Virus record (IMG/VR): IMGVR_UViG_3300005609_000008
Span: 1-60,854 of that record
Length of the DNA stretch: 60,854 nt
Direction: 5' to 3' (one strand)
DNA from: a virus
Made by a program: the position numbers and the translations under genes. The notes beneath the pieces are model-generated. The model saw nothing but the letters and a program-made list of their open reading frames with translations. It had not been told where the DNA came from and made no database searches. This document shows positions 1,265 to 44,456 of the stretch, piece after piece (position 1 is the first letter of the stretch; the number at the start of each line of letters is the position of its first letter).

Positions 1265-1377
1265 TCTAAAACATCAATTGAATAATTTTCGGTCAATTCT
1301 GTTTAGTTTATGTAACTTTCTAATTGTTTACAAAAACTGGTTAATAGCGAAAGAGCCTCTTAATTGAGGCTTTTTTA
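1265..1377 (+). ncRNA. Candidate small RNA between promoter and terminator
   Basis: A gene-free stretch of about 110 bases starts just after a TATCTTTG promoter box and ends in a strong intrinsic terminator. Neither strand has a convincing reading frame here, apart from the 3' edge of the minus-strand gene at 1375. The existence of the RNA is inferred from promoter-terminator pairing alone. Confidence 0.35.
1354..1377 (+). terminator. Rho-independent terminator
   Basis: A perfect 6-bp stem AGCCTC/GAGGCT with loop TTAATT, followed by a T tract. It ends the plus-strand arm at the convergent junction with the minus-strand virion arm. Confidence 0.85.
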
Positions 1378-1524
1378 TTTCCTTTTTCTTTTCCTTCTTT
1401 TTTTCTTAGATAGTTTAGACTTTTTAAATCCATCTGTCGCATAGTAAAGCTTTACTTGTTTGTCAGTAAACACTCTACCACTTGGACTTACATTTCTATT
1501 TCTACCTGCTTTTGTGAATGGCAT
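1375..1524 (-). CDS. Small basic phage protein
   Basis: 49 aa, read from ATG at 1524 to TAA at 1375. The first 33 residues contain a compact motif (SPSGRVFTDKQVKLYYATDG) and the rest is almost all Lys/Arg. It starts 5 bases downstream of the giant virion gene on the same strand, so it is probably the last gene of the late operon. It resembles the other tiny Lys/Arg-rich proteins at 38.8-42.1 kb. The basic tail suggests nucleic-acid binding; function unknown. Confidence 0.6.
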   Translation of the reverse strand: MPFTKAGRNRNVSPSGRVFTDKQVKLYYATDGFKKSKLSKKKRRKRKRK

Positions 1525-1529
1525 AATTT

Positions 1530-4500
1530 TTAGTTTGGTCCAAATGGAGATGAACCTTTTCTGTTGCTACTTGGTCCAAATGGAGATGATTGTTTTTTTC
1601 TTTTCTTAACTGGAGGCGTATAGTCATACATCTTATCCTTTTGTTGTTGTCTTAACTTACGTGCTTTTCGTTTTAACTCTTTCTCTGCCTGCCTTGTTTC
1701 ATATCCTGGAGAGTCAGGTCCAAACGTTATCTCCCATAAAGAAAAGTTATACCTCTTCATATCAGATTCACTGTCATAGCCTTGAAGCATCTCTTCTTTT
1801 CTTTTCTTTTTATTGGCAGCATCTTTCTTAGCCTTTCGTAACCCTTTATACATATCTGCTAATACTATCTTTCTTATGTCTTTGTAGAAAGGAATAAACC
1901 CTAGCACACCAAATGTTTCTAGTGGAAGCCTTATAAACCTTTCATCTTGTTGTCTTTCAATAGCATCAGGTTGCACCCTGTCTGATTCAAATAATTTATT
2001 TATTCCAAACTCAAGAGTTTTTATCATAGGACTGTATGCAGCAAATAAGTTTGGAGCTATATCTGCAAACTGAGGAGGTCTACCACTCTTTCCTTCTGGA
2101 ATAATAGTGTACTGTATGGCATCCCTATACTTGTCGTAATCTCCATCTCTAAGGAATTGACCATACGCTTCATTAAGATTTTCTAAACCAAGGTTTATAA
2201 TACTCTTGGTTGCATTACCAAAGTCTCTACCAAACAGTAAAGATGTAAAGGCTGACACCATTGCTTGCCCTAACATTTTATCAACAGACTTCATGCCTTG
2301 TTCGTCATCATCTTCAAACTGAAAGTTTGAGAAATCAAAGTCTTCATCATCATCATCTTCAGTTAAGTCTTTAATAGCTTCTGCTACAAGTGTACCCATA
2401 AATGTATATGCTATCATACGAGTTGTTACACCTGCAAGTAAAGCAGCACCCTGTCTTTTGTTGACTTGTCCGTTACCTACGGCAGCCATTATTCCTGTTC
2501 TAGCAGTTATGTATTCAAAGATTAAAAACCTAGTCATAAATCCATTAAAAGCATTAAACCCTCTTAATAACATTCCTTGATTTGGTTTTACAGTTCCTTT
2601 AAGGATACCCATAAAAGCATTATCGGTAGCTCCCATAGCTACTGATCTGTTGTCTGCTAGTGTCTTGGCATCATTCAATTCAGTAGCATACTTATTCATG
2701 TAAGCTTCGTCATTGGCTGCAATCTTATCAAAGTCTGGAGACTTACCAGTAAGTTGTTTGAATCTATTTTCAAATGCACCAAACCACATCGGTTGCATTA
2801 CTAACTTATCAGGTGCAGATATCAATGAATCAGCAGTGAACTCAACACCTTTAATCCATCTTTGACCAGTCTTGTTCCATAACTGTAGTATTGTATTTTT
2901 AACTCTACCTTTAGCTCTACTTGCAGTAACGCCTGCTGCTTGATTTAAAATTCCTGTATCCACAAATTTACCAGACAATCCTGTTGAGAACACCCTGTTT
3001 GTTTGTGTACTATTAAGGTTATTCATAACCTCTTTACCTTCAGGACTTGCTAAAAGTTTTCTATTTTTTATTCCTGAGATTATACCTTTTGGGTCTATAT
3101 AAATTCCTGCAAGTATGTTGCTTAAAAGTTCATATGAAGCTCTAGGAATTCCTGCAAGTATTGCTCTGTATCCTTGCTTTTGTATATAGTCTACTGCTTG
3201 ATCTGCAATGGTGTTTTGAGTTAATGCATTGCTTAATAGGTTTTCTATTGATTCTATAGAAGCATCACGAATGGCATTAAACTTTCTTCTATTACTTACA
3301 GACATGTTTCCATCTTCATCGGATAGATTTTTTTCTATCTGATTAAGTGTTCTTCTAGCAGTTCTAATTGGCTCTGTTAAATTAAAGTCCATTAAAGTAT
3401 ACTTAGCACCTCTTTGAACAGACGCATACACATCAAAGTTTAAAGGCGATACCTTACCTGTTCTTTCAATTAAACTCTTAGCCTTTGTGGATGGCTTTAA
3501 GTATTTATTAAACATATCAGATATTTGAGATGTCTCCGTTTCAATAATATCTGCTTTAGAAACATCAGGTATAACACTCAAGTGAGTATAATTTTTAAGA
3601 GGTGTAATCTTGTTTCCTCTAATTATATTAGCAGTATAAACTGCCTTGTCAGTCATAGACTTATTTATTTCCTCTAGTGTTCTTATTGAATTTCTTTCTG
3701 CAACATTAAAGGATTCATATAGTTGGTCAATATCAAAAGGCTTTGTTCCGTTAGCCGTATATTTATCAAGTATCTCCTGAAGCATTTTAGCATCAGTCTC
3801 GGTGTAACTTGTTGTCTCTGTCTTTATTCTTTTGATAGTGGCTTTCAAAAAGTCTTCAACACTATTCACTTGATTACTATCTGGGTTACTTAAAAACTCT
3901 TGCTGAATAAGATAAGACATCTGCTTATACTTAGACATAATAACCTTATTTGGGTTACGACCAAAAGATTTAAACACTGCCTGCTCTACTTTTTCTATTT
4001 TAGCCTGCACCTCTTTTATAGCCTTAGTGTATTTAGCTGAAGCTTCAGCAGACCTTTTAAATATAGAATTAAATATATCTTTAGTTTTAAAGTCTCCAAA
4101 GACTTGGTCAATATAAAAAGTAGGGTTACGTCTTATTAATTCTAAAGTAGGAGACTTGCCTGTTCTTCCAATTTTAGATTTAAGGTTTGCATAAATCTTA
4201 CTTAGTGGCAATAACTTACTTCTCTTTATTGCGTTAGTACCTACCTTAGCATCATTGATAGCATTCATTTTGCCTACCATTATTTGAGCATAGTGTGGCA
4301 GGTATCCGTTGTTTATGTTATCAATTACTTTGAATAAATTTTTCAGGTCATCCAAAGACAAGTCATTAATTGCATCAGTCTTTAAAAGTTTCTTAAACCT
4401 TTTAGCTAAGTCTCTTTCTAGCCTGCTTGGGAAAACCGATGGGTCAACTTCTTTTGTTGCCTTTACATCCTTAATAACCTCTTGTCTTTCTGCTTCAATT

Positions 4501-7500
4501 TCTGCTTTCTTTTCTTGTGTTTCTGCTTCAATTTCTGCTTCCGTTTTAGGTGTTGCAATCTCAGATTTAATCTGAGACTTGTATTTCTTCATCACCTCAT
4601 ACTCACGTTCATCTATAACCTCATTGTCAAGCATTTCTTTTATAGTTGCAGCATAGTCCACTCCATTGTCACCCATAACCTTTTCTGCATTTTTATACCT
4701 GTCTGCAAGCTCAATAGCCATAGAATACTCCTCGTCTAACTGCTGAAGAACATCCTCAGTTAGTTGTATAACTTGTTCCATTGGAGGTAGTGACAAAACA
4801 CTTTCTCTCTTTCCAAATATGTTAATCAACTCCATGTATTGATCTAACACAGAGTCAGGTATTAGAGATGGTTTTACAGAGAACAGTCTCTGTAGTTGGT
4901 CTACCAATCCTTCAGCGATACCTATCTTTGTGGACACATTCTTTCTAGCCTTACCTTTCTTGGCATTCGCTATCATCATTTTATTTCCGTAATCAGCGTC
5001 ATTGAATACCTTTGTCATATACTCCACAAACCTTTCTACAGTGATTGGGTTGTTAAAGTCATCAGGTACTTTGTTTATTACAGACACCATCTTACTTGGC
5101 GTAATCTTTCCTTCCTTTGTAAGCTCTCTTAGTGAGGCAACAATATCTTTCTTGACATCCTTGGCTCTTTTTTTCTGGTCGTTAAGAGCCTTAAATATTT
5201 TTCGTTGTTCGTCTGGAGTTATATTTAAAACATTCTTAATCTCTGTGATTGCCTTCTTTATAGATGACGTTCTCTTTCTTGTTGGTTTCTTACTAGGCTT
5301 TTTCTTTCCACTAGGCTTCTGCTTACGAATAGAAGGTGCGTCTGGGTTAAAAGTTTTATTAGTTCCATCGGCTAACTTAGATTGATTAGATTCAAAAGTA
5401 ACATAAGAGTCTGTAAATTTTTGTTCACCTGTAAACAAATCAAAATCAGAATGAGTTTTAGAAGAGTTTACTGTAGATACAAACCCCCCTGCATCTAACA
5501 ACTCCTTGATTCTATTGTTATCCTGAGAGGTTAACTCTGTGCCTTCATTATTTTCAATAACATACACATTACCTTGATTAGAACTGAATGTTATAAAAGG
5601 TCTAGATTCACTTTCACTTTGTAAAACTACATCCCCAACAAACACATTACCATTATTTCTTACATAAATTTTTGAAGATTGTTCGTCAATTATATAACTC
5701 ATTTTAGAGTCTTGAGAATCAAAAGCATTTTCATAGACCAACCCATCATACCCCTCGTTTTCTAACACACTTATTAAAGCATCACTTTGTTTGGTGACTA
5801 AAGTATTGGAATCATAATATTCATCTTCTGTTAGGTTTTCTTCTATATCATAAAATAAATTTTCTAAAGTTTCAAATTGTTCATCATTTATGATGTCATT
5901 CTTTATCAATTGTTGTATTAAAATAGGTGGGTCAAACCTATGGCTATCTTCAACACGAAGAGGATTTCTTATATTTAAAAAAACATTTATTTCTCTTTCA
6001 AATTGTTCACCTTTGGCTATAGATAAATCCTCCTTTATAGATGGTTCTCCAAAATGAAAACCTGTTTCTTTGTACTTAAATACATCAAAATAATTATTTG
6101 TAAAATGTGATACTGGTAATGGTTCTCCATTCTCATCGACAACCTTGCTTGAGTTTTCAGGGTCAGTCTCCCAATTACCAAACCAATTCTTAAATGCAGG
6201 TGTCCGAACTAATTTATATTGTTCAGGAGTTAAATTGCTTGGATTTCCATTTGGAGCTAAATCAATTTGCTTACGAGACTGAGGTGCGTCTTTTATTACT
6301 TTTTCTTGTTTGGTTCTAGGGTTAAACATTATTGGAAACCCTTCAGGATTTTTACCAAATGAAAGGTAATACCCTGTAGGAGTACCTCTTCGTCTTCCTT
6401 CTGTAATATATCTTGTTTCTACCCTAAGACCAAAACGTCTAGCAGCTCTTTGTAGTTCTCCAAGTGGCGTAGTTCTATATGGAATGTATCCATTCTTTTT
6501 CATATAAAATGTATCAGCCATCTTGTTAAGACGCTTCATATCAATCTGCTTACGTGATTGTGGAGCATCAGAAATATCTGCAGGAATTATAGATGTTTTC
6601 TGCTTACGAGACTGAGGTGCGTCTTTTTTTATTTCAGCTTTTACAGTAGCCACTTTAGGTCCTGATCCTGCACTACTTGATACGTTAGACGACTTAAAGT
6701 CTTTAGTATTTTCTCTTGTAGAAACTACTGCTCCTGACTTGTTAAATTTTGTATAAGAATCGGTAACCTCAGTGCTTTGATAAAAATTTGTAGGTTGAAC
6801 AATAGTTTTTATTTTGGCTTTTACAGTCCATGCAAAAGATGGGTGATAATCAGCGTCTCCCTTTTTTGGTCTTGAAGGAGTTTCAAAAGTAGTATTATCA
6901 AATTCAACAAGACCTATAATATCAAATTTTTGACTTCCTAAATTCATAGGGTCTTCTAATAACTCAGCAAATTGAATTTTATTTTTAACACCTAAAGCAG
7001 CTTGAACTTTTTTGTTTGAAGCTATTTTATCGTTTAATATTTTTCTTAAATCTGGTGAATAATTATTATCAATATCTAAAAGCTCTACTAATCTTTTAGG
7101 ATTTTCTATAAAATCATTTAAGTTGTTTGTGTTTTTTAATTTAGGAAGGTTACTTCCTTCTTTTGATTGTGCTTTTTTATATTTTTTATTAAATATATTT
7201 AATGCATTTTGACCATTCTTACTTTTTAAACCATCATTAAAACTTTCAATCAACTCTTGATTAGTTAGTATATTATTATCTAATAATTTTTCAGTTAACT
7301 GCTCAAATATATTTTGTTGAAACTGCCAAGAACCTTCTTTAGTTCCTACGTGTGGAGCAAATAAATTTGCATTTCCATCTATAGCATTTTTAATAAATCC
7401 TTCAGCTTGACCTTGAGTGTTAAAAGCAGCAACATTAGAAACTTCTCCTAATTTAGTTCCTGTTTTTTCCATCATATCAGCAACATAATTTTTACCTCCA

Positions 7501-10500
7501 TACAAGTCAAGTACAATACCAGCACCAATATTAGTTGGTCCAGCATTTGTAAAGTCATACATATTAGTTACAAAATTTTGCCCTCTATAATCTTGCAAGT
7601 CTTTTTGAATTATATTTTTTGCATAATCTCTAGTGTCATCTTTTATGTTTGGAGCTTTTTGTTTTCTGTCTTTAAAAGTAAAAGTAAAAGTACCTACTTG
7701 ACCAGAACCTCCTTGCTCTTCAACTTCGAGAATTTCAACATCCTGCTCTGTAATTTCTTGTCCTGCTTTTACCTTTGCAGAAACTACATTTAGCAAGTCA
7801 ATAACCTCAGCATCAGTAAACTTCTTAACTCCTAGTATCTTAGCTAGTTTGTTAACCCATCTCTGTACTAAGTTCTGAGTAGGTGCATCCATTTTTGGCA
7901 ACTCTGATGCTAGTAATCCAAACAACTCGGCAATACTCTCCTCACTCTCAAGTGCAGACTCATATTTATCAGAATGTTTCTTTAGTTTCTCTAGTAACTC
8001 TGGCGATGCAGTTTTTTTAACTGCCTTAAACATCCTGTCAGTGATGGCTTTAGCCTGCTTATTAGTGATTCCATTTCTTAGTAACAACGCATGGAACACC
8101 TCGTGTGCAACAGTGTTATCCTGTACCTTTGTTGCGTTTATGTGGATAGTCTTTGTTCTAGGATTATACTCCCCATTTGAAGACTTCTTTATCGTCTCTT
8201 CTCCTGTAGCTTTACGATAAGATGAGTCATCACTATGCAAAACTATTTTAATGTCCTTATCGAGCTTCTCTAAAGCTCTCCTAGCATTATCTATTTGCTT
8301 CTCTACTTTAGTAATTTTCTTTTCTACTTTAGTGACTTGCTTTCTAGGTTTCTGAGTAATCTTTTCTAAAGCCTTCTTAGCCTTTCTAATCTCTGATTTT
8401 TTTTGTTTTAAATCTTCTCTATAAGATTCAATGACACCATCCCTTTCATCTTTTAAATCCTCTTGTTCAGCTACCTTTTCTTCTATCGCTTCAATCTTTT
8501 GTTCCTTTGATAGCTTTTTATCTTTTCTTATTTTAGCCTTCTCTTCCTTAATTCTAGCAACCTCTTCTTTGTAGTTATCTTGTTCAATGGTTATCTCCTC
8601 TAAAATGGTTTCAGCACTCATCTGATCATTCTCAATCTCATTCTCAAGCCTTGATATTTCTGGGTCAGTCTGAGGCGTGGCAGGAGTTTTTAATTTGAAT
8701 CGTTTCGTGACATCTTTAACAAAGTCATTAAATTGATTATCAGTCATAGCAATCAAGTCTTCTACCTTCACTGATATTCCTCCCATTATAACTTCTCCGT
8801 TGTCTTCTCTAAAGTTTGGACTAAGTTCTACAACTTGATTTACTCTTTCATTTCCTTCAGGTGTCACCTCAACTTGTTCTTCTACTTTTACTTCTGCTTT
8901 AGGAGTAGGAGCAGGAGCAGGAGCAGGAGCAGGAGTAGGAGCAGGAGCAGGAGTAACTATCATATCAACCCCTACCTTTGTTCCATCACCAAAGGTTTCT
9001 GCATACGCAGGAGCATTTGCAATGATATCTTTAGCCATTGTTTTTGTACCTACCTCAATTATTTGTCCTGTAACTTTATTGACAACCCACCATTTATCAC
9101 TTGTCTTATTTCCTTCTTCATCAAATAAAGCCTGTTCTTGTCCTTTACGATTATCTAGTATTTCAAAATCTTTAGACCATGTTTTTTTATTGGTCTTGTT
9201 CATTTCGTAAACCACTTCATCATCAACCTCTACCTCAGCTTCAGGCGTTACATCCAAGCCTGCTGCTTTACGCTGCCTGTCAGACATTCTAGATTCTAAC
9301 TTAGGATTTATTACAGTCTTAATATCTACCTCTTCAGTGCTTTTAACATCTCCTTTTGTACTAACACTAACATATTCTTCGTTTGTGAGTGTGTTATCTT
9401 TTGAAATTGTTTCCCTAAAAAAAACAGCACCTTCTTCATCTGAAATTTGCACCTTCCTGCTACCATCAAGTTGAGTGGTTACTGTAGCAATGTTTGTTTC
9501 CCCATTACCATCTTCATAGGTAATATTTTGTTGCGATACAGGTACTTGAGAGTCGTTATATCTTTCTTCTTTTACCTCTGTCTCTTCTTTAGAAGTAACC
9601 TCTACCTCTGTATCCGTTTCTGTTTGCTGGTCTTTATTAAACAACTCAACTGCTCGTTCTAAATTTTGTTGCTCAGTTATTTCAAACTCCTCATCACCCT
9701 TTGCCTCAGACTCTTCTACTAACTCTTTACTAGCCTGCTCTATATATTTTAATTGCTCACTCTGTTCAAGTTCTCTAAAGGCATCTACCTCAGTGTTAAC
9801 CTCAGCTTCTAGCTGATTTTCTTGTAAATCTTTTATTTTAGATTTAAGTATACTAGCCTTTTCCTTAGCAACCTCAGTCTTGTTTCCTTCTAATTTACTA
9901 AGCTCTAGTTGTAGCTTTGTTATTTCAGCTAAAGTCTCAGGGTTAATATCAGGATTAGCCTCTAGTATTAATCTCTCAGTATTTAATTGTAATATTCTAT
10001 CAGAAAGTTTTTCTGCTCTACCTTCGTAATCGTTGTCAATCTTTATTTTTGTAGACTGTAGTTGGTCTAAAGTCATGGTCTCTATAAGGTTGTCTATAGT
10101 CTCTACGTCTACCTTCTTTCCGTTTACCCTATACTTTGGCTTCGAAAACCTTGCAGATATAACATCCTTTACCCCACCTGGTGCTTCAGCAATACCCTCT
10201 AATGCAATCTCAGAGATATCCATCTCTTGACCAATCACACCTCTAGCAGTAGCTTCACCTAAAGACCCACCTACAGATTCAATTCCTGACGCAGCTAAAA
10301 CAGATTTAATTTTTGTGCCTTTAGTTGCACCTTTACCAGCTTTACTAAGAATTTTACCTGCAACCTTACCACCTAACCTACCTGTAAACGCATCAATTAC
10401 ACCAATGGTTAGACCTCTAGCTAATGCTCTGTTTCGTAGACTCGTATATATTTTATCATCATTTAATGCCTCTCTAATTTTTTCAGGAGTAAGCTCTCCC

Positions 10501-11333
10501 TCAATCTCCTCTTGTAGTAACTCAGAGAATGTAGCACCCATTTCAAGAACTGATCCTGCTGCTGCAAATGCGTATGGAAGCGTTGCTGCTGCACCTGCTA
10601 TTGCTCCTGGTACTGCTCCAACACCACCTGCTAAAGCACCTGAACCTGCTCCTACTGCTGCACCTGAACCTATTACTGAACCTGCAGCTACTAAGGAATC
10701 TTTATTAGTTCCCATAGATGTTATAGAACTAATTATAACTTCAGGAATAACTTGTAATCCTGACTTAGCTAACCCCATAACAACCCCCATAAAACCTTTT
10801 CCATTTTCTTCGTAGGTCTTTTGGTAAGCCATCATCTCATCAGATGGACCTAGTTTCTGTGCCTCTTTATTGGCTTCAATAAAACTGTATATATCTTCAT
10901 CGGTAGCGTTTGCACCTCGTAGTAATATGTCTGATGCATCTTCAGCAACCTGACCTTGATAGTAACCTGTAGCAACACTACGAGCCATGTCATCTACAAA
11001 GTCTCCTAGTCCTATTCTTGTTACTGCATCAAAGCCTCTTAGTATGTCACCAAAAGTTCCTTCAAAAAAGTCCTGTTCAGTCTGTGGTTGTATAGCCGAA
11101 GAAATGTTTTCCGTAACCAATTCCCCATTTTGATCTTGAGCAATAAAACCTGATTCGTCTTTTTTTTTTTGAGAAAATGCAGCTTCAAATTCTTGTAAAT
11201 CGGCAAAAGCACCTGGCTTTATTATAGAAAACAAAGTAGCATTATCAACTTGGTTTGCAAAATCTTGAAACTCTTCAAAAGATGAAAAAGCTCCATCAAC
11301 AGTTAATCCAAATAAATCTTCAATTTCAAACAT
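1530..11333 (-). CDS. Giant polyvalent virion protein with zincin and ADP-ribosyltransferase-like domains
   Basis: 3267 aa, 16% of the window. Visible parts in order: a Gly/Ala-rich hydrophobic stretch at about residues 214-263, possibly membrane-penetrating; charged coiled coils around 430-580 and 880-1040; a Pro-Ala repeat at about 793-814; a zincin-like peptidase with HEVFH at 1077-1081 and a downstream EESIAELFG helix; an unassigned globular region at about 1225-1570; a segment at about 1690-1880 (FKNWFGNWE, SKVVDENGEPLPV, FHFG) matching the ADP-ribosyltransferase domains of phage polyvalent proteins; then over 1200 mostly helical residues with an acidic block near 2990-3005 and a tail repeating SSPFGP. 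DAPQSRKQ-type motifs separate several domains. As the last gene after the internal virion proteins, it is probably packaged and ejected (inference). No lytic transglycosylase domain is evident. Confidence 0.75.
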   Translation of the reverse strand: MFEIEDLFGLTVDGAFSSFEEFQDFANQVDNATLFSIIKPGAFADLQEFEAAFSQKKKDESGFIAQDQNGELVTENISSAIQPQTEQDFFEGTFGDILRGFDAVTRIGLGDFVDDMARSVATGYYQGQVAEDASDILLRGANATDEDIYSFIEANKEAQKLGPSDEMMAYQKTYEENGKGFMGVVMGLAKSGLQVIPEVIISSITSMGTNKDSLVAAGSVIGSGAAVGAGSGALAGGVGAVPGAIAGAAATLPYAFAAAGSVLEMGATFSELLQEEIEGELTPEKIREALNDDKIYTSLRNRALARGLTIGVIDAFTGRLGGKVAGKILSKAGKGATKGTKIKSVLAASGIESVGGSLGEATARGVIGQEMDISEIALEGIAEAPGGVKDVISARFSKPKYRVNGKKVDVETIDNLIETMTLDQLQSTKIKIDNDYEGRAEKLSDRILQLNTERLILEANPDINPETLAEITKLQLELSKLEGNKTEVAKEKASILKSKIKDLQENQLEAEVNTEVDAFRELEQSEQLKYIEQASKELVEESEAKGDEEFEITEQQNLERAVELFNKDQQTETDTEVEVTSKEETEVKEERYNDSQVPVSQQNITYEDGNGETNIATVTTQLDGSRKVQISDEEGAVFFRETISKDNTLTNEEYVSVSTKGDVKSTEEVDIKTVINPKLESRMSDRQRKAAGLDVTPEAEVEVDDEVVYEMNKTNKKTWSKDFEILDNRKGQEQALFDEEGNKTSDKWWVVNKVTGQIIEVGTKTMAKDIIANAPAYAETFGDGTKVGVDMIVTPAPAPTPAPAPAPAPTPKAEVKVEEQVEVTPEGNERVNQVVELSPNFREDNGEVIMGGISVKVEDLIAMTDNQFNDFVKDVTKRFKLKTPATPQTDPEISRLENEIENDQMSAETILEEITIEQDNYKEEVARIKEEKAKIRKDKKLSKEQKIEAIEEKVAEQEDLKDERDGVIESYREDLKQKKSEIRKAKKALEKITQKPRKQVTKVEKKITKVEKQIDNARRALEKLDKDIKIVLHSDDSSYRKATGEETIKKSSNGEYNPRTKTIHINATKVQDNTVAHEVFHALLLRNGITNKQAKAITDRMFKAVKKTASPELLEKLKKHSDKYESALESEESIAELFGLLASELPKMDAPTQNLVQRWVNKLAKILGVKKFTDAEVIDLLNVVSAKVKAGQEITEQDVEILEVEEQGGSGQVGTFTFTFKDRKQKAPNIKDDTRDYAKNIIQKDLQDYRGQNFVTNMYDFTNAGPTNIGAGIVLDLYGGKNYVADMMEKTGTKLGEVSNVAAFNTQGQAEGFIKNAIDGNANLFAPHVGTKEGSWQFQQNIFEQLTEKLLDNNILTNQELIESFNDGLKSKNGQNALNIFNKKYKKAQSKEGSNLPKLKNTNNLNDFIENPKRLVELLDIDNNYSPDLRKILNDKIASNKKVQAALGVKNKIQFAELLEDPMNLGSQKFDIIGLVEFDNTTFETPSRPKKGDADYHPSFAWTVKAKIKTIVQPTNFYQSTEVTDSYTKFNKSGAVVSTRENTKDFKSSNVSSSAGSGPKVATVKAEIKKDAPQSRKQKTSIIPADISDAPQSRKQIDMKRLNKMADTFYMKKNGYIPYRTTPLGELQRAARRFGLRVETRYITEGRRRGTPTGYYLSFGKNPEGFPIMFNPRTKQEKVIKDAPQSRKQIDLAPNGNPSNLTPEQYKLVRTPAFKNWFGNWETDPENSSKVVDENGEPLPVSHFTNNYFDVFKYKETGFHFGEPSIKEDLSIAKGEQFEREINVFLNIRNPLRVEDSHRFDPPILIQQLIKNDIINDEQFETLENLFYDIEENLTEDEYYDSNTLVTKQSDALISVLENEGYDGLVYENAFDSQDSKMSYIIDEQSSKIYVRNNGNVFVGDVVLQSESESRPFITFSSNQGNVYVIENNEGTELTSQDNNRIKELLDAGGFVSTVNSSKTHSDFDLFTGEQKFTDSYVTFESNQSKLADGTNKTFNPDAPSIRKQKPSGKKKPSKKPTRKRTSSIKKAITEIKNVLNITPDEQRKIFKALNDQKKRAKDVKKDIVASLRELTKEGKITPSKMVSVINKVPDDFNNPITVERFVEYMTKVFNDADYGNKMMIANAKKGKARKNVSTKIGIAEGLVDQLQRLFSVKPSLIPDSVLDQYMELINIFGKRESVLSLPPMEQVIQLTEDVLQQLDEEYSMAIELADRYKNAEKVMGDNGVDYAATIKEMLDNEVIDEREYEVMKKYKSQIKSEIATPKTEAEIEAETQEKKAEIEAERQEVIKDVKATKEVDPSVFPSRLERDLAKRFKKLLKTDAINDLSLDDLKNLFKVIDNINNGYLPHYAQIMVGKMNAINDAKVGTNAIKRSKLLPLSKIYANLKSKIGRTGKSPTLELIRRNPTFYIDQVFGDFKTKDIFNSIFKRSAEASAKYTKAIKEVQAKIEKVEQAVFKSFGRNPNKVIMSKYKQMSYLIQQEFLSNPDSNQVNSVEDFLKATIKRIKTETTSYTETDAKMLQEILDKYTANGTKPFDIDQLYESFNVAERNSIRTLEEINKSMTDKAVYTANIIRGNKITPLKNYTHLSVIPDVSKADIIETETSQISDMFNKYLKPSTKAKSLIERTGKVSPLNFDVYASVQRGAKYTLMDFNLTEPIRTARRTLNQIEKNLSDEDGNMSVSNRRKFNAIRDASIESIENLLSNALTQNTIADQAVDYIQKQGYRAILAGIPRASYELLSNILAGIYIDPKGIISGIKNRKLLASPEGKEVMNNLNSTQTNRVFSTGLSGKFVDTGILNQAAGVTASRAKGRVKNTILQLWNKTGQRWIKGVEFTADSLISAPDKLVMQPMWFGAFENRFKQLTGKSPDFDKIAANDEAYMNKYATELNDAKTLADNRSVAMGATDNAFMGILKGTVKPNQGMLLRGFNAFNGFMTRFLIFEYITARTGIMAAVGNGQVNKRQGAALLAGVTTRMIAYTFMGTLVAEAIKDLTEDDDDEDFDFSNFQFEDDDEQGMKSVDKMLGQAMVSAFTSLLFGRDFGNATKSIINLGLENLNEAYGQFLRDGDYDKYRDAIQYTIIPEGKSGRPPQFADIAPNLFAAYSPMIKTLEFGINKLFESDRVQPDAIERQQDERFIRLPLETFGVLGFIPFYKDIRKIVLADMYKGLRKAKKDAANKKKRKEEMLQGYDSESDMKRYNFSLWEITFGPDSPGYETRQAEKELKRKARKLRQQQKDKMYDYTPPVKKRKKQSSPFGPSSNRKGSSPFGPN

Positions 11334-14694: not shown

Positions 14695-15546
14695 TTATGG
14701 AAATGATTTCATAACCTCTGATCCAACTGCAAATAACTCTACTGCACCTGTATCATTATTGGTTAAAGTAAATACTGCATAGTGACCTAATATACCATGA
14801 GACTCTGCAGTACCATTCTTTATGAAAAAATAATAGCTTGGACTAGTAGGTGGTAAATTACCTATTGGAGTTCCAGCAGAATCTGTGATGGTGGTATCAA
14901 CTATCAAATAATTTTCTCCACTTTGAAGATTAACAACCTTATCTTTTACTTCTCCAATTAAAGTAACTTGATTTGTAAAGCCACTTTTGATGTATAAATA
15001 ATCACCAATACTTAATATTGTTCCAATGTTTACATATGGGTCTGTGCTAAAATTAATGATTACATTATTTGGAGATAAGGTATTTACTGTTGTGTTGTTC
15101 CCAATACCATTGGCAGACCTTAAAGGATATTGAGCTGCACTTGCAGGCTCTGAATTTTGTGCTCTAAGATATCCGAAATAGTTTCCTTCTTTAAGTTTAA
15201 ACTCGTCTTCATTAATAAAGTTCCCAATCTGCTGATCACTATCTGCAGTTGCACTCCACGATGCATCAGACTCTAACTCTAAAGTTTTAAATAATTTATT
15301 CTCTAAAGGTAAATCATTAAACACCGATGTTAGTATGGAAGAAAAATCTTCTCCATAATAATTATTTCTAGTTTCATTTGTGTTATGTCTATAAATATTA
15401 CCTCCCTTAAAAGTGTATAGGTAATTATTCATACCTTGAATCCAATCAGGATAGTAGGTATAAAAAGAAGGAAATCCTTTTACTCCATCATCATATGTTA
15501 AGGTATATTTTGATTCTAATGTTGGTATTGGTACAGGTCCAGCCAT
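14695..15546 (-). CDS. Structural protein, tail region
   Basis: 283 aa. Tyr/Asn-rich N-terminus (FPSFYTYYPDW, YNNY-type stretches with GGNIYRHNT), then beta-rich Ser/Thr/Gly segments typical of tail or baseplate proteins. The YTFKGGNIYRHN pattern resembles phrases in beta-propeller nozzle proteins. No enzyme motif. It sits 3 bases from its upstream neighbour in the tail operon. Identity is inferred from position. Confidence 0.5.
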   Translation of the reverse strand: MAGPVPIPTLESKYTLTYDDGVKGFPSFYTYYPDWIQGMNNYLYTFKGGNIYRHNTNETRNNYYGEDFSSILTSVFNDLPLENKLFKTLELESDASWSATADSDQQIGNFINEDEFKLKEGNYFGYLRAQNSEPASAAQYPLRSANGIGNNTTVNTLSPNNVIINFSTDPYVNIGTILSIGDYLYIKSGFTNQVTLIGEVKDKVVNLQSGENYLIVDTTITDSAGTPIGNLPPTSPSYYFFIKNGTAESHGILGHYAVFTLTNNDTGAVELFAVGSEVMKSFP

Positions 15547-16425: not shown

Positions 16426-19400
16426 TTAAAAACAAGTGCATGTAACGCTAATTACTGTAGCACCATCATTAGTAATAAGTTGTGATATACAAGCATTCCA
16501 AACCTCAGTAGGAATAAGTGTCTGAGAAACAGGTGTTCCAACACAATCAACATACTCAAGTGTTAAATTACTTCCAGTATTATTTTCCCATGTATATGAG
16601 TTACAAACACAAACTTGATTTGAAGTTAATGCAATTATATCATCAGTAGCAATGTTTACAGTAGTTCCTGTTATTGTCCACTTACAACCATCCCCACTTA
16701 GTAATTCTACTTTATCTCCAACTGAAACTGCAATAGAAGATGTCACTGTTCTAACTTCATTAGTAACACATTCTTGAATTGAATAGTTTGAAGGAACAGG
16801 GTTGCAATCACAAGTCACAAATTCTATATCTATTCCTATTTTTGGTTTAAGTGACGATGCACAAATAGTTTCAACTACTGGACTATTAACATCTATTTTT
16901 ACTAATAATCCATTACAATCTATATAATTAACAGATATACTACCTCCTATGGTGTTTGTAAGTGTATATTCATTACAAACGTCACTGCAATCTTCACCTG
17001 GATAAGTGTTTATTATGTTAGTATTAACAGTTCCAAACTCAGTAAATGATATTACTTTAAATTTACAATCAGGCTCGTTGTCAATTTGAACTATATCACT
17101 TACAGTGTAACTTGAATTATTTGCGATATATGTGGTAGGACTTGTAATACCTGGTGTTTCACATCTTTCTACAATTACCTTAGAAGGTTCACTACTAGGG
17201 CATTCACAACTTGTCCAAACTAAATCAAAATCAGGTTGTGGTGCTGCATCTTTAGCACATATATTTTTAAAATTTCCTACTTTAATATCTTCATTTATAA
17301 CTACACCATTACAATTAGTATATATAAAATCAACTGTTGAAGCATTATTAGTTACTGTATAAAAATTACATACTTCACTACAATCTGCAGCAGTGCTTAA
17401 TCCTGTAGAAGTAGCGTCTGCAGGACCAGCATTTGTTTCAGAAACAACAACATACGTACAGTCTGCATCTTCATTTATAGTAATTAAATCACCGATATTA
17501 AACAGACCACTATTTACTATAGTAACTTGATTAAAACCATTTGTACTCCAATCTATTACACATCTTTCAGCTATTAAGAATGGTGCAATAGGATCACACT
17601 CACAATCTTCAAGAGTAATAATAATTCCTGGTGTTGCAGAAATCTCTTGAGCACAAATAACCAAATCATCATTTGCTAGAACTGTAGCCGTTACTGAATC
17701 TCCATTACAATCTATGTAGTCAACATCTGTATCAACTCCATTAGTTTCTTCTAGTTGATATTCTTGACAAATATCTTCACATGTCGTACCTGAAGGTAAT
17801 ATAGCAGTAACAGTTGCAGTCGCTGCCGTTGGTGTTACTGCTCCAATTTCATAAGTACATGCATTAATAGTAACTAATTCCCCTGTAGTATATACGCCTT
17901 GAACTGTTTCAGTTTGCACAACCCCATCAGCTCTACATTGTGTAGCTATAAAAGTATCAGGTTCTGAACAACCACAACACGAATCCAAAGAATCTACAGT
18001 TGAGTAACATAACTCTGCAAAAACAGGAGACCTGTAATCATATATTAAATACAAGTAATCACCAGACGTTCCTGCAGGCATTATAAAGTCTCCCAAGTAT
18101 GTACTTGGTGCTCCTGAAGAATTTACTGGTAATTGAGTAGAAGCGTTTAACAATGTTTGTATTGATGCAGGTGTATTTGAATATAACGTTGCTGACCTTA
18201 AATATTTAAAATTCATAGGTGGTGTTACAAAAACAAAATCATCTGTCGGTGGTATCTTATTCGAAATAATCGAAACAATTGCTCCATCAGCAGGAACAAC
18301 TCCTGCACCTTGAACACCTGCAACTGTACTATATTGTGATACATTAGGTGAGTTTGGAGATGACAAAAATTCAATTTGTTCTTGGTGTAATGGAGAAATA
18401 AATGGTCCATCAACCCATCGATATTGATTATGAATAAATTGACCTGCATCTGAGTTATTAGTAACACAGACTTGTACAATACTTAATGCTTTGGCATCTA
18501 CACAACTAACTGTATAATCTATAACTGCTGACGCAGTTCCATCAAAAGTAAGGTTTAGAGTATCTGTTAAAACTAAATTTTTAATTACTGTGATTGTGTT
18601 TAGTCCATTAACTAAATTTACTACTTGAAGTGTTGTTCCATATTCAGCTTGTGCTTGAAGAGAACCACTAGTTAAATCAGAAACATTAAGTGTTATAGTT
18701 ACTTCACCCACTAAATCTCCTACATTAAAACAATAATTAATAGTTGTTCCGTTAAAATTTAATAGTTGATTAATCCCACATTCAACACAAGGCACATCAA
18801 TTGGAAGCAACTCATCATTAATAGAAAAAACATACTCATCCATATAAGGGTCGTACCCTCCTAGTTTTTGATTATTAGGAGATGATATAAATTTATCTCT
18901 AAACCATGAACGCATTCCTGCATCGGATATAACTGTAAGTTGTTCATTAGAATATGCACTACCTTTTAGTTGAATTAATGCTCCACGTTTTTGGTCAGAA
19001 AAATATTTATCAAATCCATATTGTGCAAAACTTTCAGGGTTAAAGCTTATCCCATACTCCTCTAGTCTAGCTATTTGAGTTCCAAGAACTTCTGGAACAG
19101 ATGTAATAGCTCCTCCTGGAACTGAATCAGATAATAAATTTTTACCTGCTAGTACATATGATATTTTATCTTCTTGTAATGTAAGTATGTCAGTAGCTCT
19201 AGCGAATAGTTTTTCAATAGGACCGAATGATTCTTCTGTTCTTTTAAAATTTAAAAGTCCAAGGTTAAACTCATTAAGTTTATTTACGTTACTTTCATCA
19301 TTGTATATACCACTATAAGTAATGTCTGCAAACCTATCAGCTTCTCTATAATCTTCTGCAGATGTAGTTGTTACTCTATTACCTAATAATAATGGTTTTC

Positions 19401-22400
19401 CCACTATTGAATCTCTAATCTTGTAACTTTCTACACCATTACCAAAAGAAAAACAATTAAAAAATGATGTGTCAATAATTGCAGGATTAGTTGCGTCTTG
19501 ATCTTGAACATTTCCAAGATGCACATCTTGATATGGAGTGTTAGTAATTGTTACATCTGCAGGGTCATCAGGTGGAGTAGATGGTGATATTATAGCAGAC
19601 CCACAATCTGTCCATGATGCTGCCGAATCTCCTGGCTGAAGAACAAGTTGAGATTGAATACCATCTAAAGTGTATACAAATGCAATTGGGTTAGATTCAC
19701 TAGAACCTACTTGAAACACAGTTTTACAACCTCCAGTGGCAATGTCAAATGTTTGAGCACCTTCATACCAAACATCTGGTAGTGCATCAGTAGGCTCTGT
19801 TTCAAATACAAGTGTAGATTCAGCTCTAAATATTTGCCATGTTGCAGTAGCTCTAGACCTTCTTTTCTTAGTTGATCCACAAGCTCTAGTACCTGACATT
19901 ATAAAACGTATCTCTTGAGTATTAGGGTGTTGAAACCATCTATAATAATTTGTTCCCAACGCAGGCGTAATTCCATATCTATTAAATGGATTTGAAGATG
20001 TTGCCGTAGTTGGTATGTACACATTCTCTACATCTCCACCAGTACCACCAACTTCTTGCGTTCCTGTATTTAAAACTGATTGAATATTATCTCCATTAAA
20101 CCACTCAATAATATCATCATAATCAGTAGATGCAATTAAACTAACATCTAAATTATATTTTCTACGTTCACATGCATTATTACCTTTTTGAGGTCCTCTT
20201 CTTTCGAATTCAAATGTCATTTGTATTCTACTACCTGCAGGAATAGTAAGGTTCTGATAATTACCTGCATCATCAGGCTCTGCAAATCCTTTATAGGCAA
20301 GTACAGGATAGTTATCATTTCCTCTTACTGTTATAGACTGCTTACCTGGTAATATAAAAGGGTCAGGTCCTGTAGCTGTAGAAAAATCTTGAGCTTTTAT
20401 TTTCATATAAGTCCCTGAAGGAATATTTATTTCTTTTCCATTTTCATCAGTTGGTAAAGGGTCAAGAAAATCTCTTTCTTGTGCTTGCTTATCTAAAATT
20501 GTAGCATAAGCACATCTTAACAAAGAACCAGTTGTGTCAGCTTTAACAATTAACCTGTCTCCTGTTTCTACTTTTCTTTGGTTTTCCCCTTCTAATAAAA
20601 AGTACGTGTCATTGGTAGCAGGGTCTGTAAAAAATATATTGGTATAAACTGTTTCGTAAGTTTCTGCATTAGGTTTTATTGCAAATCTATATTTAGTTGC
20701 CCAATACGGAGGTTTCTGTTGAGGTGGTATTGAAACCCTTATAAAATTTTTAAGGTCAGCAAAGCTACAAGGAACGTGTTCAGTATTTAATGGACTAACT
20801 AAAGCAGTTGAAGCTCTATTAAAATCATCCATATAAACTATACCTATTTCGTAATCTCTATTACTATGAAGACTTTTGGTATTACTAAGTTCTTGATAAG
20901 TAACTTCTGCATTACTCCATTTAAAATATTCATAGGCACTTTGAGTTGGAGTTGTAGTATTGTCTACTCTTCTCATAGCAATTAATCCTATAGAAATTTC
21001 ATTAGGAGAACTAGGAGAAGCAATAATTTGTAAAGGTTGATTTACTGCTGAAATACCACTTTCATATTTAGTCCAAGAAGTTGGAGAGCCACCATCTAAT
21101 ATATTAGGGATAACACAGTTAATATTGTCAGTAAATGTAACCCCATCACAAGAAGTTTCAACTAGTGGGTCAATATTAAAAATAGGTTTTATATTGCTAG
21201 CTATACCTATCTTTTCTTGAAAATCTAAACTACTAGCTAATTCGTATGCATTATTAAAATCTTGAGGCAACACATAACTGAATTGAACTTCTAATGAACC
21301 ACTTGTTTCAGTTGGAGTATTTCCACTAAAAGCACTATGTTCAATAGTTGCGTCAATACTTAAAAGACCACCTGCTTTTAAATCTACATCTAATTCAATT
21401 AGTAACATTGAATCTGAAATAACTACCGAACCATCAATACTGTATGTAATAGGAATAAAATTATCCTCTATTTCAGTAAGACCTATATTCTCGCTTATTA
21501 ATTCAGTAACATACTCAAATCGTACAGGGGAATTGTTTTTATCAACTAAATTATAATTCTCTATATAGTTACCATACATTAGTCTGTTACCCATAATTGT
21601 TTGAGCTTTAGCTAATAAAGGAACATTGTCATATAATCTAAGCAGTTCTGAGTCTGGGAGTATGGTAAATATTTTACTATTTCTAAAATTAAAAGTATAT
21701 TCGGTATTATCTGCTAAACCTAATTCAGATTTTTTTAATTTTTCAATTACTTTTATAAAAGTACCATCACTGTCTTTAAAAAGTAAATCAATTGCAGTAA
21801 CTAAAGGTCCTCCTGAATTATATGTTATAACGGCAGTATTAAACCTATTAATAGCACCTTCATTTAAAAAAGATTCTGCACTAAAATCAAAAGCTTTAGG
21901 CTGAAAAGCTGCATCTGTAAATTGTGAAACGGCAGAATATTCATCATCTTGGTATTCATATCTGTAAGCAAAAGATATAAACCTTTCTTCTAAAAAATTT
22001 TCTTGTCCACCACTAGTAACTGTTAACTCTATTTCTGGAGCTTTAGCAGGTGGTTTTTTGATAACTAACAAAGACTCTCTTAAAAGGCTTGCATTACCTC
22101 CACCATCAACCAAAGGACTTCCTAAAGGGTCTGGGTAACTTCTTAGTATATTAATAAACCTTGGAGGATTGTAATCATCAGTCCAAAATAATAATCCATC
22201 AATAACATTAATTCCAGTTATTAAATGTTTATCATCAAAGTTTAATACTGTTTGTGATGATGTACCTCCATCCGAAACACTTATTACTAAATAGGATAAA
22301 ATGCTTGTTACTACATTAAACGAGACAATTAAGTCTAACTTTCCTGAAGGACTTGTAGAACCAAACGCAGGGTCAGTTACAAACCAATACAAAGTATCAT

Positions 22401-22638
22401 TAGCACCATCGTCTACAGCACCAATACACTTTGCTTGGTTACTTAAAAGAACTCCTTCGTATGATAAGTTCGTAAGCTTAGTATTTCCTTTAGAATTTTC
22501 TACTGCTCCAATCTCGGTTGATTCAGATGATCCTAACCTAACATTTACTGCGTCAATATATTGTCCGTTTGGAACGAGTCTTTCGTCAACGGACTTATTC
22601 ATTTTACCTGCTACAAAGTTTCTTGAAAGTTTAGCCAT
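16426..22638 (-). CDS. Giant tail nozzle / stabilisation-like protein with C-terminal Cys-rich repeats
   Basis: 2070 aa. The N-terminus (FVAGKMNKSVDERLVPNGQY, DAVNVRLGSSES, GAVENSKGN) matches the start of P22 gp10-like stabilisation and T7 gp12-like nozzle proteins that close podovirus tails. Beta-propeller-like segments follow to about residue 1000. The last 550 residues are tandem modules of about 100-130 aa built on the pattern YxLxN...YIDCNG...V...IC..., each with four to six conserved Cys (YIDCNGDSV, YTNCNGVVI, YIDCNGLLV, YVDCVGTPV). This C-terminal extension is far longer than in classical podoviruses. It could project from the tail tip and bind the host surface (inference). Its gene follows two adaptor-like genes. 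Confidence 0.65.
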   Translation of the reverse strand: MAKLSRNFVAGKMNKSVDERLVPNGQYIDAVNVRLGSSESTEIGAVENSKGNTKLTNLSYEGVLLSNQAKCIGAVDDGANDTLYWFVTDPAFGSTSPSGKLDLIVSFNVVTSILSYLVISVSDGGTSSQTVLNFDDKHLITGINVIDGLLFWTDDYNPPRFINILRSYPDPLGSPLVDGGGNASLLRESLLVIKKPPAKAPEIELTVTSGGQENFLEERFISFAYRYEYQDDEYSAVSQFTDAAFQPKAFDFSAESFLNEGAINRFNTAVITYNSGGPLVTAIDLLFKDSDGTFIKVIEKLKKSELGLADNTEYTFNFRNSKIFTILPDSELLRLYDNVPLLAKAQTIMGNRLMYGNYIENYNLVDKNNSPVRFEYVTELISENIGLTEIEDNFIPITYSIDGSVVISDSMLLIELDVDLKAGGLLSIDATIEHSAFSGNTPTETSGSLEVQFSYVLPQDFNNAYELASSLDFQEKIGIASNIKPIFNIDPLVETSCDGVTFTDNINCVIPNILDGGSPTSWTKYESGISAVNQPLQIIASPSSPNEISIGLIAMRRVDNTTTPTQSAYEYFKWSNAEVTYQELSNTKSLHSNRDYEIGIVYMDDFNRASTALVSPLNTEHVPCSFADLKNFIRVSIPPQQKPPYWATKYRFAIKPNAETYETVYTNIFFTDPATNDTYFLLEGENQRKVETGDRLIVKADTTGSLLRCAYATILDKQAQERDFLDPLPTDENGKEINIPSGTYMKIKAQDFSTATGPDPFILPGKQSITVRGNDNYPVLAYKGFAEPDDAGNYQNLTIPAGSRIQMTFEFERRGPQKGNNACERRKYNLDVSLIASTDYDDIIEWFNGDNIQSVLNTGTQEVGGTGGDVENVYIPTTATSSNPFNRYGITPALGTNYYRWFQHPNTQEIRFIMSGTRACGSTKKRRSRATATWQIFRAESTLVFETEPTDALPDVWYEGAQTFDIATGGCKTVFQVGSSESNPIAFVYTLDGIQSQLVLQPGDSAASWTDCGSAIISPSTPPDDPADVTITNTPYQDVHLGNVQDQDATNPAIIDTSFFNCFSFGNGVESYKIRDSIVGKPLLLGNRVTTTSAEDYREADRFADITYSGIYNDESNVNKLNEFNLGLLNFKRTEESFGPIEKLFARATDILTLQEDKISYVLAGKNLLSDSVPGGAITSVPEVLGTQIARLEEYGISFNPESFAQYGFDKYFSDQKRGALIQLKGSAYSNEQLTVISDAGMRSWFRDKFISSPNNQKLGGYDPYMDEYVFSINDELLPIDVPCVECGINQLLNFNGTTINYCFNVGDLVGEVTITLNVSDLTSGSLQAQAEYGTTLQVVNLVNGLNTITVIKNLVLTDTLNLTFDGTASAVIDYTVSCVDAKALSIVQVCVTNNSDAGQFIHNQYRWVDGPFISPLHQEQIEFLSSPNSPNVSQYSTVAGVQGAGVVPADGAIVSIISNKIPPTDDFVFVTPPMNFKYLRSATLYSNTPASIQTLLNASTQLPVNSSGAPSTYLGDFIMPAGTSGDYLYLIYDYRSPVFAELCYSTVDSLDSCCGCSEPDTFIATQCRADGVVQTETVQGVYTTGELVTINACTYEIGAVTPTAATATVTAILPSGTTCEDICQEYQLEETNGVDTDVDYIDCNGDSVTATVLANDDLVICAQEISATPGIIITLEDCECDPIAPFLIAERCVIDWSTNGFNQVTIVNSGLFNIGDLITINEDADCTYVVVSETNAGPADATSTGLSTAADCSEVCNFYTVTNNASTVDFIYTNCNGVVINEDIKVGNFKNICAKDAAPQPDFDLVWTSCECPSSEPSKVIVERCETPGITSPTTYIANNSSYTVSDIVQIDNEPDCKFKVISFTEFGTVNTNIINTYPGEDCSDVCNEYTLTNTIGGSISVNYIDCNGLLVKIDVNSPVVETICASSLKPKIGIDIEFVTCDCNPVPSNYSIQECVTNEVRTVTSSIAVSVGDKVELLSGDGCKWTITGTTVNIATDDIIALTSNQVCVCNSYTWENNTGSNLTLEYVDCVGTPVSQTLIPTEVWNACISQLITNDGATVISVTCTCF

Positions 22639-35892: not shown

Positions 35893-37923
35893 CTATGGGG
35901 TGCAGGAGGTAAAATTAGGTTTTGGTTGTGTCCAAGTTGAAGAAGTTCCATCACTAAAAGATTGACAATTAGTAACATTTGGATTCACACTCCATCCACT
36001 TAAATCTTGATTCATTGCAGAAGGACTTGTAACTAAAAACATAAAAGACATATTTGTAACACTACTCACATCCCAAGAACTTATATCTTGATTAAAAACT
36101 TTGTTTTGTATAAACATAAATTGCATATTATTCACACTACTCACATCCCAAGAACTTATATCTTGATTAAAAGTAGTATTGGAAAACATTTGTGACATAT
36201 CATTTACACTACTCACATCCCAATTATCAAGAGGTTGATTAAAAATAGTAGCAAAACCAAACATATCTTTCATAGTAGTAACACTACTCACATCCCAAGA
36301 GTTTAAGCTAGAATTAAAAGCAGTATTACCATAAAACATTTGTCTCATATTTGTAACACTACTCACATCCCAACTACTAATGTTTTGATTAAATGAATCT
36401 GCATCTCTAAACATAGAATCCATATTTTCTACACTACTCACATCCCAAGAGTTTAAGCTAAAATTAAAAGCAGTAGCTTTATAAAACAAATAACCCATAT
36501 CCTCTACACTACTCACATCCCAACTACCAATGTTTTGGTTAAAAGCAGTATTGAATGCAAACATATAGTACATAGTAGTAACACTACTTACATCCCATCC
36601 ACTTATGTCTTGATTAAAAGGAGTGAATGAAAACATAGCACGCATATTTTCTACACTACTCACATCCCAACTACCAATGTTTTGATTAAAAGGAGCACCA
36701 CTAAACATCTCAAACATATCATTTACACTACTCACATCCCAACTACCAATGTCTTGATTGAAAGAAGTTGCCTGACCAAACATTCTACTCATAGTAGTAA
36801 CACTGCTAGTGTCCCAAGCACCAATATCTCCATTAAAAGTAGATTTAGACACAAAAGCATTAGACATATTAGTAACTAGACTTACATCCCAATCTTGTAT
36901 CTTTCCGTAAGGGACAAGATCATAGTCTCCATTAGGGTCTTGAGCTAGTATATCATTAATTGCAGTTTGAAATGTTGCATCAGTTAATTGACTGGGATTT
37001 ACAAAAGGTGGTTTGGATAATATCCAACTTGGTGTATTAGTATCAAAGTCAGTATAATTAGTAACTAGACTCACATCCCATCCACTTAAATCTTGGTTAA
37101 AACTTGTTGCATCTTTCCACATCTCTTTCATGTTGTTCACGTTGGAAGTGTCCCAAGAAGTAATGTTTCCGTTAAATGATATAGCATCTTCAAACATGCT
37201 AAACATATTTGTAACATTATCTACATCCCAACTGTTTAAAGATTTATTAAATGAAGTTGCATTCTGAAACATAAAACTCATATCAGTTACACTGCTCACA
37301 TCCCAATTGCTAAGAGGTTGGTTAAAAACAGAATTACTTCTAAACATATAACTTATAGTAATTACATTACTAACATCCCAATTATTTAAAGGTTGATTAA
37401 AAGCAGAATTTTGAAACATTTGTTGCATATTGATAACACTCCCAACGTTCCATGAACTTATGTCTTGGTTAAAAGAGGTAGTATTCAAAAACATACCATC
37501 CATAGTAGTAACATTACTTGTATTCCAATTTAAATCTTGGTTAAAAGATGATGCTCCTCTAAACATACTTTGCATAGTAGTAACACTACTTGTATCCCAA
37601 GAACCAATATCTTGATTAAAAGAAGTTGCACCTCTAAACATATCACTCATAGTAATCACACTAGACGTATCCCAAGAACTTATATCTCCATTAAAAGTAC
37701 TTTTAGATTGAAATGCACTCGACATATCTGTTACTTGGCTAACGTTCCAATTTTGAATCTTGCCATAAGGTGCTAAATCATAATCCCCATTGGGGTCTTG
37801 AGCTAATATATCTGTAATCGCTTGATTAAGTGTAGCGTCAGTTAGAGGCAGAGAACCACCTCCCCCTGCACCAATTGCTGAGGATGTTGAAGATCCTATA
37901 CCTACTGCAATGGATATATACAT
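35893..37923 (-). CDS. BspA-type leucine-rich-repeat fibre protein
   Basis: 676 aa. After about 25 residues with a Gly-rich N-terminal segment comes [20 protein letters not shown], then about 10 copies of a 24-25 residue repeat of the form W-D-V-S-S-V-T-x-M-x-x-M-F-x-x-x-x-x-F-N-Q-x-L-x-S. The lead-in then recurs ([20 protein letters not shown]), followed by about 13 more repeats. This is the BspA / DUF285-type repeat usual in bacterial surface proteins. In a phage, between lysis and fibre genes, it is best read as a receptor-binding or adhesin-like tail protein. It ends with a Cys-containing cap. The two halves are clearly a duplication. Confidence 0.8.
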
Positions 37924-42145: not shown

Positions 42146-42580
42146 ATGCAATCAGACTACTTAAAATATTGGAGGGTAGTGCGTCAGTTTATAAAAGCAA
42201 AACATGGACTAACACAAGCAGACCTTGACATCCTACTATTTTTAAAATCAGAACAATACTTTTCAAAAGATAAATTTAAAGAGTTCGATGAGTTAATCAG
42301 TTGGAATAAAAACAGATTTGAAAATCTAAGACAGGCAGGGTGGATTGAGGTCTTTAGAAAAAGAATGGGTAAAAGAAAAGCTCTATATCAACTTTCTACA
42401 AAAGGAAAAAGGGTCACCACATCAATATACAAATACCTCAATGGGAAGGAAATTCCTACAAGTAATGATGGCAACCCTATGTTTCTTAGAAACGTATCAT
42501 ACACCGATAAGGTGTATCGAAATTTTATAACAGAAATGAACGCTTTTACAAGACAACAACGACATCAGACTCAGAAATAA
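42146..42580 (+). CDS. Winged-helix DNA-binding protein
   Basis: 144 aa from ATG 42146; a longer frame from 42110 would start within the promoter gap and is less likely. The pattern GLTQADLDILLFLKSEQYFS, then NRFENLRQAGWIEVFRKR with KRKALYQLSTKGKRV, is a winged helix of the MarR/PadR kind: helix, recognition helix, beta wing. It is a lone plus-strand gene between two minus-strand units; its end overlaps the end of groES by 35 bases, tail to tail. A transcription regulator of the late arm or of the chaperonin is plausible. Confidence 0.65.
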   Translation: MQSDYLKYWRVVRQFIKAKHGLTQADLDILLFLKSEQYFSKDKFKEFDELISWNKNRFENLRQAGWIEVFRKRMGKRKALYQLSTKGKRVTTSIYKYLNGKEIPTSNDGNPMFLRNVSYTDKVYRNFITEMNAFTRQQRHQTQK

Positions 42581-44422: not shown

Positions 44423-44448
44423 TTGATTTGATTTAAATGTTATACATA

Positions 44449-44456
44449 CAAAGATA
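44449..44456 (-). promoter_or_regulatory. Bacteroidetes promoter of groEL-groES (TATCTTTG)
   Basis: CAAAGATA on the plus strand. On the minus strand TTTTG lies 17 bases upstream of TATCTTTG, a good -33/-7 match, and the ATG at 44422 follows by 27 bases. Confidence 0.75.

Follow-up and report, generated by a model that had tools for sequence, protein, structure and literature searches.

Polyvalent proteins have been described in phages and conjugative elements, and autoproteolysis by their zincin domains has been proposed (Iyer et al. 2017, PMC5512222); passages of the same paper on processing report that DdrB and DarA of phage P1 are processed. As portrayed in those passages, polyvalent proteins resemble the 3267-aa protein analysed here in having several enzymatic or other domains per chain – zincin and ART (ADP-ribosyltransferase-like) domains among them – in their late-gene context, and in the autoproteolysis proposed for them. 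They differ from it, as far as those passages go, in that the protein described here has repeated, protein-specific tags at its module borders that are linked to zincin clade. A search by terms of Iyer et al. (PMC5512222) and of the literature consulted found no description of such tags, which is no proof of absence. Polyvalent proteins and a suggested zincin autoproteolysis are known, and the border tags are, as far as term searches go, new here.

Here, we analyse a stretch of viral DNA of 60,854 nucleotides (positions 1 to 60,854 of IMG/VR record IMGVR_UViG_3300005609_000008, classed there as linear), referred to throughout as the window, and the giant protein that it encodes. That every module border carries the same short tag points to injected proteins being produced by the phage as a single chain that is later cut apart.

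The giant gene, its surroundings and its domains

The gene is a single open frame on the minus strand, exactly where an earlier note on this DNA had placed it (Table 1), and lies at the end of a head/tail block on the same strand that encodes terminase, portal, structural proteins and a crAss-type muzzle domain. It had been called the giant last late gene, and it does close the head/tail block, although a 49-codon ORF (1375-1524, minus strand) sits downstream. The muzzle protein domain (PF25729; E=2.3e-13, 50.8 bits against a cutoff of 27), a mark of Crassvirales, is predicted in the gene at 14695-15546. The block around the 3267-aa frame is crAss-like, and the phage is a Bacteroidota phage; its closest named relatives are Flavobacterium elemo phages, and a DNA-level search of phage records found none. 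Elsewhere the window has a GroEL-like gene (42546-44488, minus strand; phrog_5725, E=1.2e-130) beside an ORF for a putative GroES co-chaperonin of 85 aa, a DUF285-repeat protein (35893-37923, minus strand; E=4.6e-206, seven stretches), and a second giant gene of 2070 aa (16426-22638, minus strand) that matches the virion structural protein phrog_14478 (E=4e-226).

Table 1. Features of the 3267-aa protein and their positions in the window
Feature	Residues	Window position	Strand	Basis
Whole gene, 3267 aa		1530..11333	minus	Open frame, ATG at 11333
N-terminal backbone, conserved in related giants	77-418	10080..11105	minus	HMM search, 25 hits
Gly/Ala-rich segment, inside N-terminal backbone	212-250	10584-10700	minus	DUF6861 E=1.8e-5, below its cutoff
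Pro-Ala linker	794-811	8901..8954	minus	Sequence
Border motif RKQ (QKPRKQVTK), immediately before zincin	997-999	8337..8345	minus	N-end of model, pLDDT about 62 or lower
Zincin domain; HEVFH 1077-1081 (8091-8105), third ligand Glu1132	1000-1222	7668..8336	minus	Alignment, model, fold search
Border motif RKQ (FKDRKQKAP)	1223-1225	7659..7667	minus	At the start of domain 2; pLDDT there about 81
Domain 2	1226-1570	6624..7658	minus	Recurs right after zincin in giants; confident predicted fold
Border motif RKQ (DAPQSRKQKT)	1576-1578	6600..6608	minus	pLDDT below 50
Border motif RKQ (DAPQSRKQID)	1594-1596	6546..6554	minus	pLDDT below 50
Small module, homologous to modules in L023, L173, L182, L025 and L033	1597-1686	6276..6545	minus	HMM hits
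Border motif RKQ (DAPQSRKQIDLAPNG)	1687-1689	6267..6275	minus	Motif count
ART-PolyVal-like module; His1743, His1760, Asp1863	1690-2002	5328..6266	minus	PF18760 profile, model, BFVD
Border motif RKQ (DAPSIRKQKP)	2003-2005	5319..5327	minus	Motif count
C-terminal backbone, conserved in related giants	2006-3267	1533..5318	minus	phrog_32588 and HMM hits in other giants

Related giants share the N- and C-terminal regions, so that the chain consists of two conserved outer parts enclosing a variable set of modules, in the order RKQ, zincin, RKQ, domain 2, two RKQ copies, small module, RKQ, ART, RKQ, C-terminal region. The C-terminal backbone, matched by phrog_32588 (E=6.5e-115 over residues 2376-3222), bears out an end of some 1200 residues proposed in the earlier note – it spans about 1250 aa – and the Gly/Ala segment named there is likewise present, with a weak DUF6861 match. 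The Pro-Ala linker had been misplaced: it precedes the zincin rather than separating the ART from the C-terminal end. That note had left out the six RKQ border motifs, the domain of about 345 aa after the zincin and the module of about 90 aa before the ART. Its assignment to the polyvalent class holds, with both domains supported and a late-gene context: with its zincin, domain 2, small module and ART, the chain unites two or more distinct effector or enzymatic domains, and its gene follows late virion genes of the same strand, namely those for portal, terminase, structural proteins and the muzzle domain. From the gene order, and from the 'structural protein' annotation of the homologue in a Flavobacterium elemo phage, we infer that the 3267-aa protein is present in the virion; it would be packaged there and ejected.

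The HExxH motif (HEVFH) of the predicted zincin and the Glu of the next helix are invariant in 68 sequences, as expected of a zincin metallopeptidase, and the AlphaFold model has the expected order of strands and helices. A fold search of the PDB placed zinc peptidases – collagenases, IrrE, lethal factor, selecase, PPEP and jannalysin – at 24 of the top 50 listed matches, with a best E of 0.23 and none below 0.001. The zincin domain is supported; its fold match to solved zincins is weak. A sequence match to M78/IrrE (E=0.024) falls below the cutoff. No relatives of the zincin were confirmed in a search of bacterial and archaeal genomes. Domain 2 directly follows the zincin in 34 giants examined, some of them from the same virus, and its confidently modelled fold had no clear match in a PDB search; the small module had no match in Pfam.

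The ART-PolyVal profile (PF18760) scored 22.7 bits in the whole protein (cutoff 31.2) and 35.3 bits when the segment was scanned alone, and it matched 51 of 51 relatives of the module. With 44 BFVD hits to the AlphaFold model at E<=0.001, many named ART-PolyVal, the profile match above the curated cutoff and the predicted structure place the module in this family, and the segment proposed in the earlier note (about 1690-1880) is upheld in longer form. Numerous other phage giants contain relatives of the zincin and of the ART, so that the domain composition seen here is more than chance. The predicted homology rests on profile and fold, and a PDB fold search with the model, which has a low-confidence insertion at about 1875-1970, gave no ART hits. 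The active site of this fold is given as H, Y and D in the relevant passage of Iyer et al. (2017, PMC5512222). The corresponding positions here are His1743, His1760 and Asp1863, so that the H-Y-D triad is incomplete; the first and last are widely conserved in the family (49/51 and 47/51), and the strand-2 Tyr position is Y in 27, F in 15 and H in 5. Because this Tyr is His and HGT is changed to HFT, ADP-ribosylation by the module is doubtful, and we refer to it as ART-PolyVal-like, not as an active ART. Two weak similarities were seen: ART profile A7 to PDB 6vr4 chain A, a 2194-aa phage RNA polymerase (ART leader region to residues 48-164; E=0.069, not significant alone), and the ART model to PDB 9k3a chain B, a pre-ejectosome protein of cyanophage A4 (E=0.045, probability 0.51).

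Border tags in the window protein and in other giants

The tripeptide RKQ occurs six times in the 3267-aa protein against 0.62 expected, each time at a module border (6/6), and is absent from the other window proteins, where 1.70 were expected. Three of the four borders within the zincin/domain-2 model fall in low-confidence or terminal parts. Three copies read DAPQSRKQ (copies 1-3) and flank non-homologous modules; the five residues D, A, P, Q and S of copy 2 are all encoded by other synonymous codons than in copy 1, and such differences make the peptide, rather than the DNA, look conserved. Codon sharing of RKQ over all six sites (0.51) equals chance (0.52). Over all proteins tested, tag codon identity is above chance (0.62 vs 0.49), so that some tags have been copied recently; in some proteins the copies are nearly identical in DNA (codon identity 1.00 in L105, 0.89 in L009). 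The motif was found by exploration in a first set of giants, and sites at homologous borders are non-independent events. It would be the repeated recognition peptide at domain borders expected of a self-processing polyprotein, and thereby a candidate cleavage site.

Other giants have other border tags: RSSQQ in L073, APRQQ in L081, PTTRxRKQ in L009, ILFQE in L088, KFSL (KFSLK) in L098, EKAQ in L023, GKTG in L033, RE[QD] in L048, KFQ in L079 and DITF in L105. Tags before and after the ART are more alike within a protein than between proteins (28 modules, z=5.8, 0/20000 permutations), also when tandem arrays are removed (25 modules, z=4.1, 1/20000 permutations). Candidates that were set aside include QSTE in the L016-L022 group (one copy lies inside domain 2), SI.LP in L005 (which belongs to a 44-aa repeat), and PVAET/TPTAE in L083-L087 (repeats, likely linker sequence). 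The five 44-residue repeats of L005 with SI.LP occupy residues 425-607, upstream of the shared C-terminal region. Borders in the ART proteins L012, L031, L032, L051 and L053 read IR[FY]xxGG, possibly a separate Gly-Gly tag class, and no HExxH was seen in L012, L031, L032 and L051.

Modules shared by otherwise dissimilar giants amount to swaps made in nature, and all comparisons of them use the sequences as found, none altered. The window protein and that of L009 share 92% identity in the ART and about 20% elsewhere, yet the tags upstream of the two ARTs differ (KDAPQSRKQ in the window, EEPTTRSRKQ in L009). Domain 2 is about 80-95% identical to that of L016, the zincins about 38%; the end tag of the small module depends on the host protein, being SRKQ, EKAQ, RQQ or GKTG. 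Such shared modules carry different upstream tags, each of the recipient's type.

Tag type and zincin clade

Where the zincin is of family A, the tags end chiefly in [RK]xQ or RIQ; family B is accompanied by ILFQ, ILYQ, IYLQ or VYLQ tags and family C by IRFSK. With ART identity removed, tag similarity is associated with a shared zincin clade (partial r=0.354, 0/5000 label permutations; 23 modules, L034 entered twice), and tag type tracks zincin clade more than ART similarity.

A second set of 41 non-redundant zincin-A giants unlike the first was drawn from a scan for zincin-A relatives. RKQ occurs 58 times in these against 17.6 expected (permutations of RKQ 11-23 times) and RQQ 25 times against 6.6; RKQ numbers 15 against 19.3 expected in first-set giants with other or no zincin, and 12 against 8.2 in controls. 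Counted from HExxH, R[KQ]Q lies once at -60 to +120, 12 times at +120 to +200, once at +200 to +400 and 46 times at +400 to +700 (the last count adding the printed bins +400..+700 and +700..+1000), compared with 2, 3, 2 and 24 for permuted tripeptides; it flanks the zincin itself, just before and just after. Of 83 R[KQ]Q, 18 lie in border windows, against 6 of 112 permuted forms (p=8e-4), and the choice between RKQ and RQQ tends to be consistent within a protein (0.82 vs 0.62, 0/5000); the windows for these two tests were set after a first look, and second-set sites share ancestry, so that p-values overstate independence.

Comparison of zincin-end with ART-end tags gave no signal (n=11). Blind detection of repeated k-mers reached p<=1e-8 in 6/56 giants of the first set (2/1120 shuffles), in 0/41 of the second, where shuffles were not beaten at strict cutoffs, and in 2/61 controls, some of which may be polyvalent-like. 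Borders of the DIR[YF]S type also occur in some giants whose examined stretch shows no zincin; there, the cutting would be the work of a different protease, or the motif would serve a different function.

A proposed virion-borne polyprotein, its rivals and known systems

The reading that we favour, at a probability of roughly one half, is that the gene encodes a virion-borne polyprotein cut at lineage-specific border sites, most likely by its own zincin. The conserved N- and C-terminal parts would probably serve packaging or ejection, and the cassette between them – zincin, domain 2, small module and ART – is variable. Each border would carry a lineage-specific recognition peptide, here x-R-K-Q, at which a sequence-specific protease, most likely the zincin within the chain, would cut during head maturation or after ejection, freeing the modules as separate proteins to be delivered into the host. 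The present analysis establishes the domains, the border motif with its enrichment, position and protein specificity, and the tie of the motif to zincin clade; cleavage at the motif, the zincin as the enzyme, the time of cutting and delivery into the host are proposals built on these. Self-processing, a role absent from the earlier note, is the likelier job of the zincin.

The least improbable of the alternatives, though still unlikely, is that the tags are cleavage sites for a different protease of phage or host, like the prohead proteases of T4 and giant phages. Such enzymes are reported to process ejected head proteins in SPN3US, and border tags persist in giants with no zincin detectable in the stretch examined; but a scan of part of the window proteins brought up no recognisable protease, tag type goes with zincin clade, and R[KQ]Q also stands directly before and after the zincin. 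Slightly less probable again is that the tags are short docking or packaging signals, one to each module, by which a portal, scaffold or chaperone is bound, and that no cutting takes place. Protein-specific repeated peptides in disordered linkers would suit a docking motif equally, and a passage of PMC5512222 reports N4 vRNAP as packaged uncut. Docking leaves the association with zincin clade unaccounted for, as it does the placing of tags at borders, where they frequently flank a module on either side, instead of a single tag in each protein.

That an ordinary polyvalent protein is delivered whole, its zincin and ART acting on host targets and the border motif being incidental, we hold to be improbable. 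It was in essence the reading of the earlier note and is the established model for such proteins, with T4 Alt as the precedent given in a passage of PMC5512222; however, the ART active site is atypical, and the RKQ borders, the zincin-clade link, the second-set enrichment and the RKQ/RQQ consistency go unexplained. Least probable of all would be neutral seams left by module shuffling. The nearly identical DNA copies in L105 and L009 are what seams would leave, yet the tag codons of the window gene differ as much as independent codons do, shared modules bear recipient-type tags, and the excess of RKQ seen in many zincin-A giants is missing from giants that have another zincin or none.

If the polyprotein reading is true, the tags show where modules start and end in giant proteins without annotation, and the zincins form a family of orthogonal sequence-specific proteases, each with its own targets. 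A general guess about zincin autoprocessing in polyvalent proteins becomes a set of exact candidate cleavage sites in many phages, including a cultured Flavobacterium elemo phage. More tentatively, and at somewhat worse than even odds, a broad phage group may package its ejected effectors as self-cleaving polyproteins, an analogue of those of eukaryotic viruses, in which the cleavage code drifts by lineage with the embedded zincin and moved modules adopt the border code of the recipient.

Among known systems, the virion RNA polymerase of coliphage N4 is likewise a giant with a zincin domain and is ejected; unlike the window protein it carries an RNA polymerase, and a passage of PMC5512222 reports it as packaged unprocessed. 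The cargo proteins of Crassvirales (gp45-gp50 of phi-crAss001, PMC10172136) are large; that paper reports their storage in the virion and proposes that they are ejected. The window phage resembles this group in having the C-terminal domain of a crAss-type muzzle protein. A term search of the phi-crAss001 paper found no occurrence of protease, zincin or cleav, and no RNA polymerase gene was noticed among the window proteins scanned. Closest is the giant 'structural protein' of a Flavobacterium elemo phage with a 60-kb genome (MT497075; 3667 aa, L002), whose zincin is 34% identical to that of the window protein over 207 aa and whose C-terminal end matches distantly, at about 22%. Its module content differs, and no match to the window ART-PolyVal module was seen there. 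It too has R-x-Q tags at successive borders: SRFQ at about 1655, after the zincin, TRQQ at about 2051, after the next domain, and VRMQ at about 2274, after the next module.
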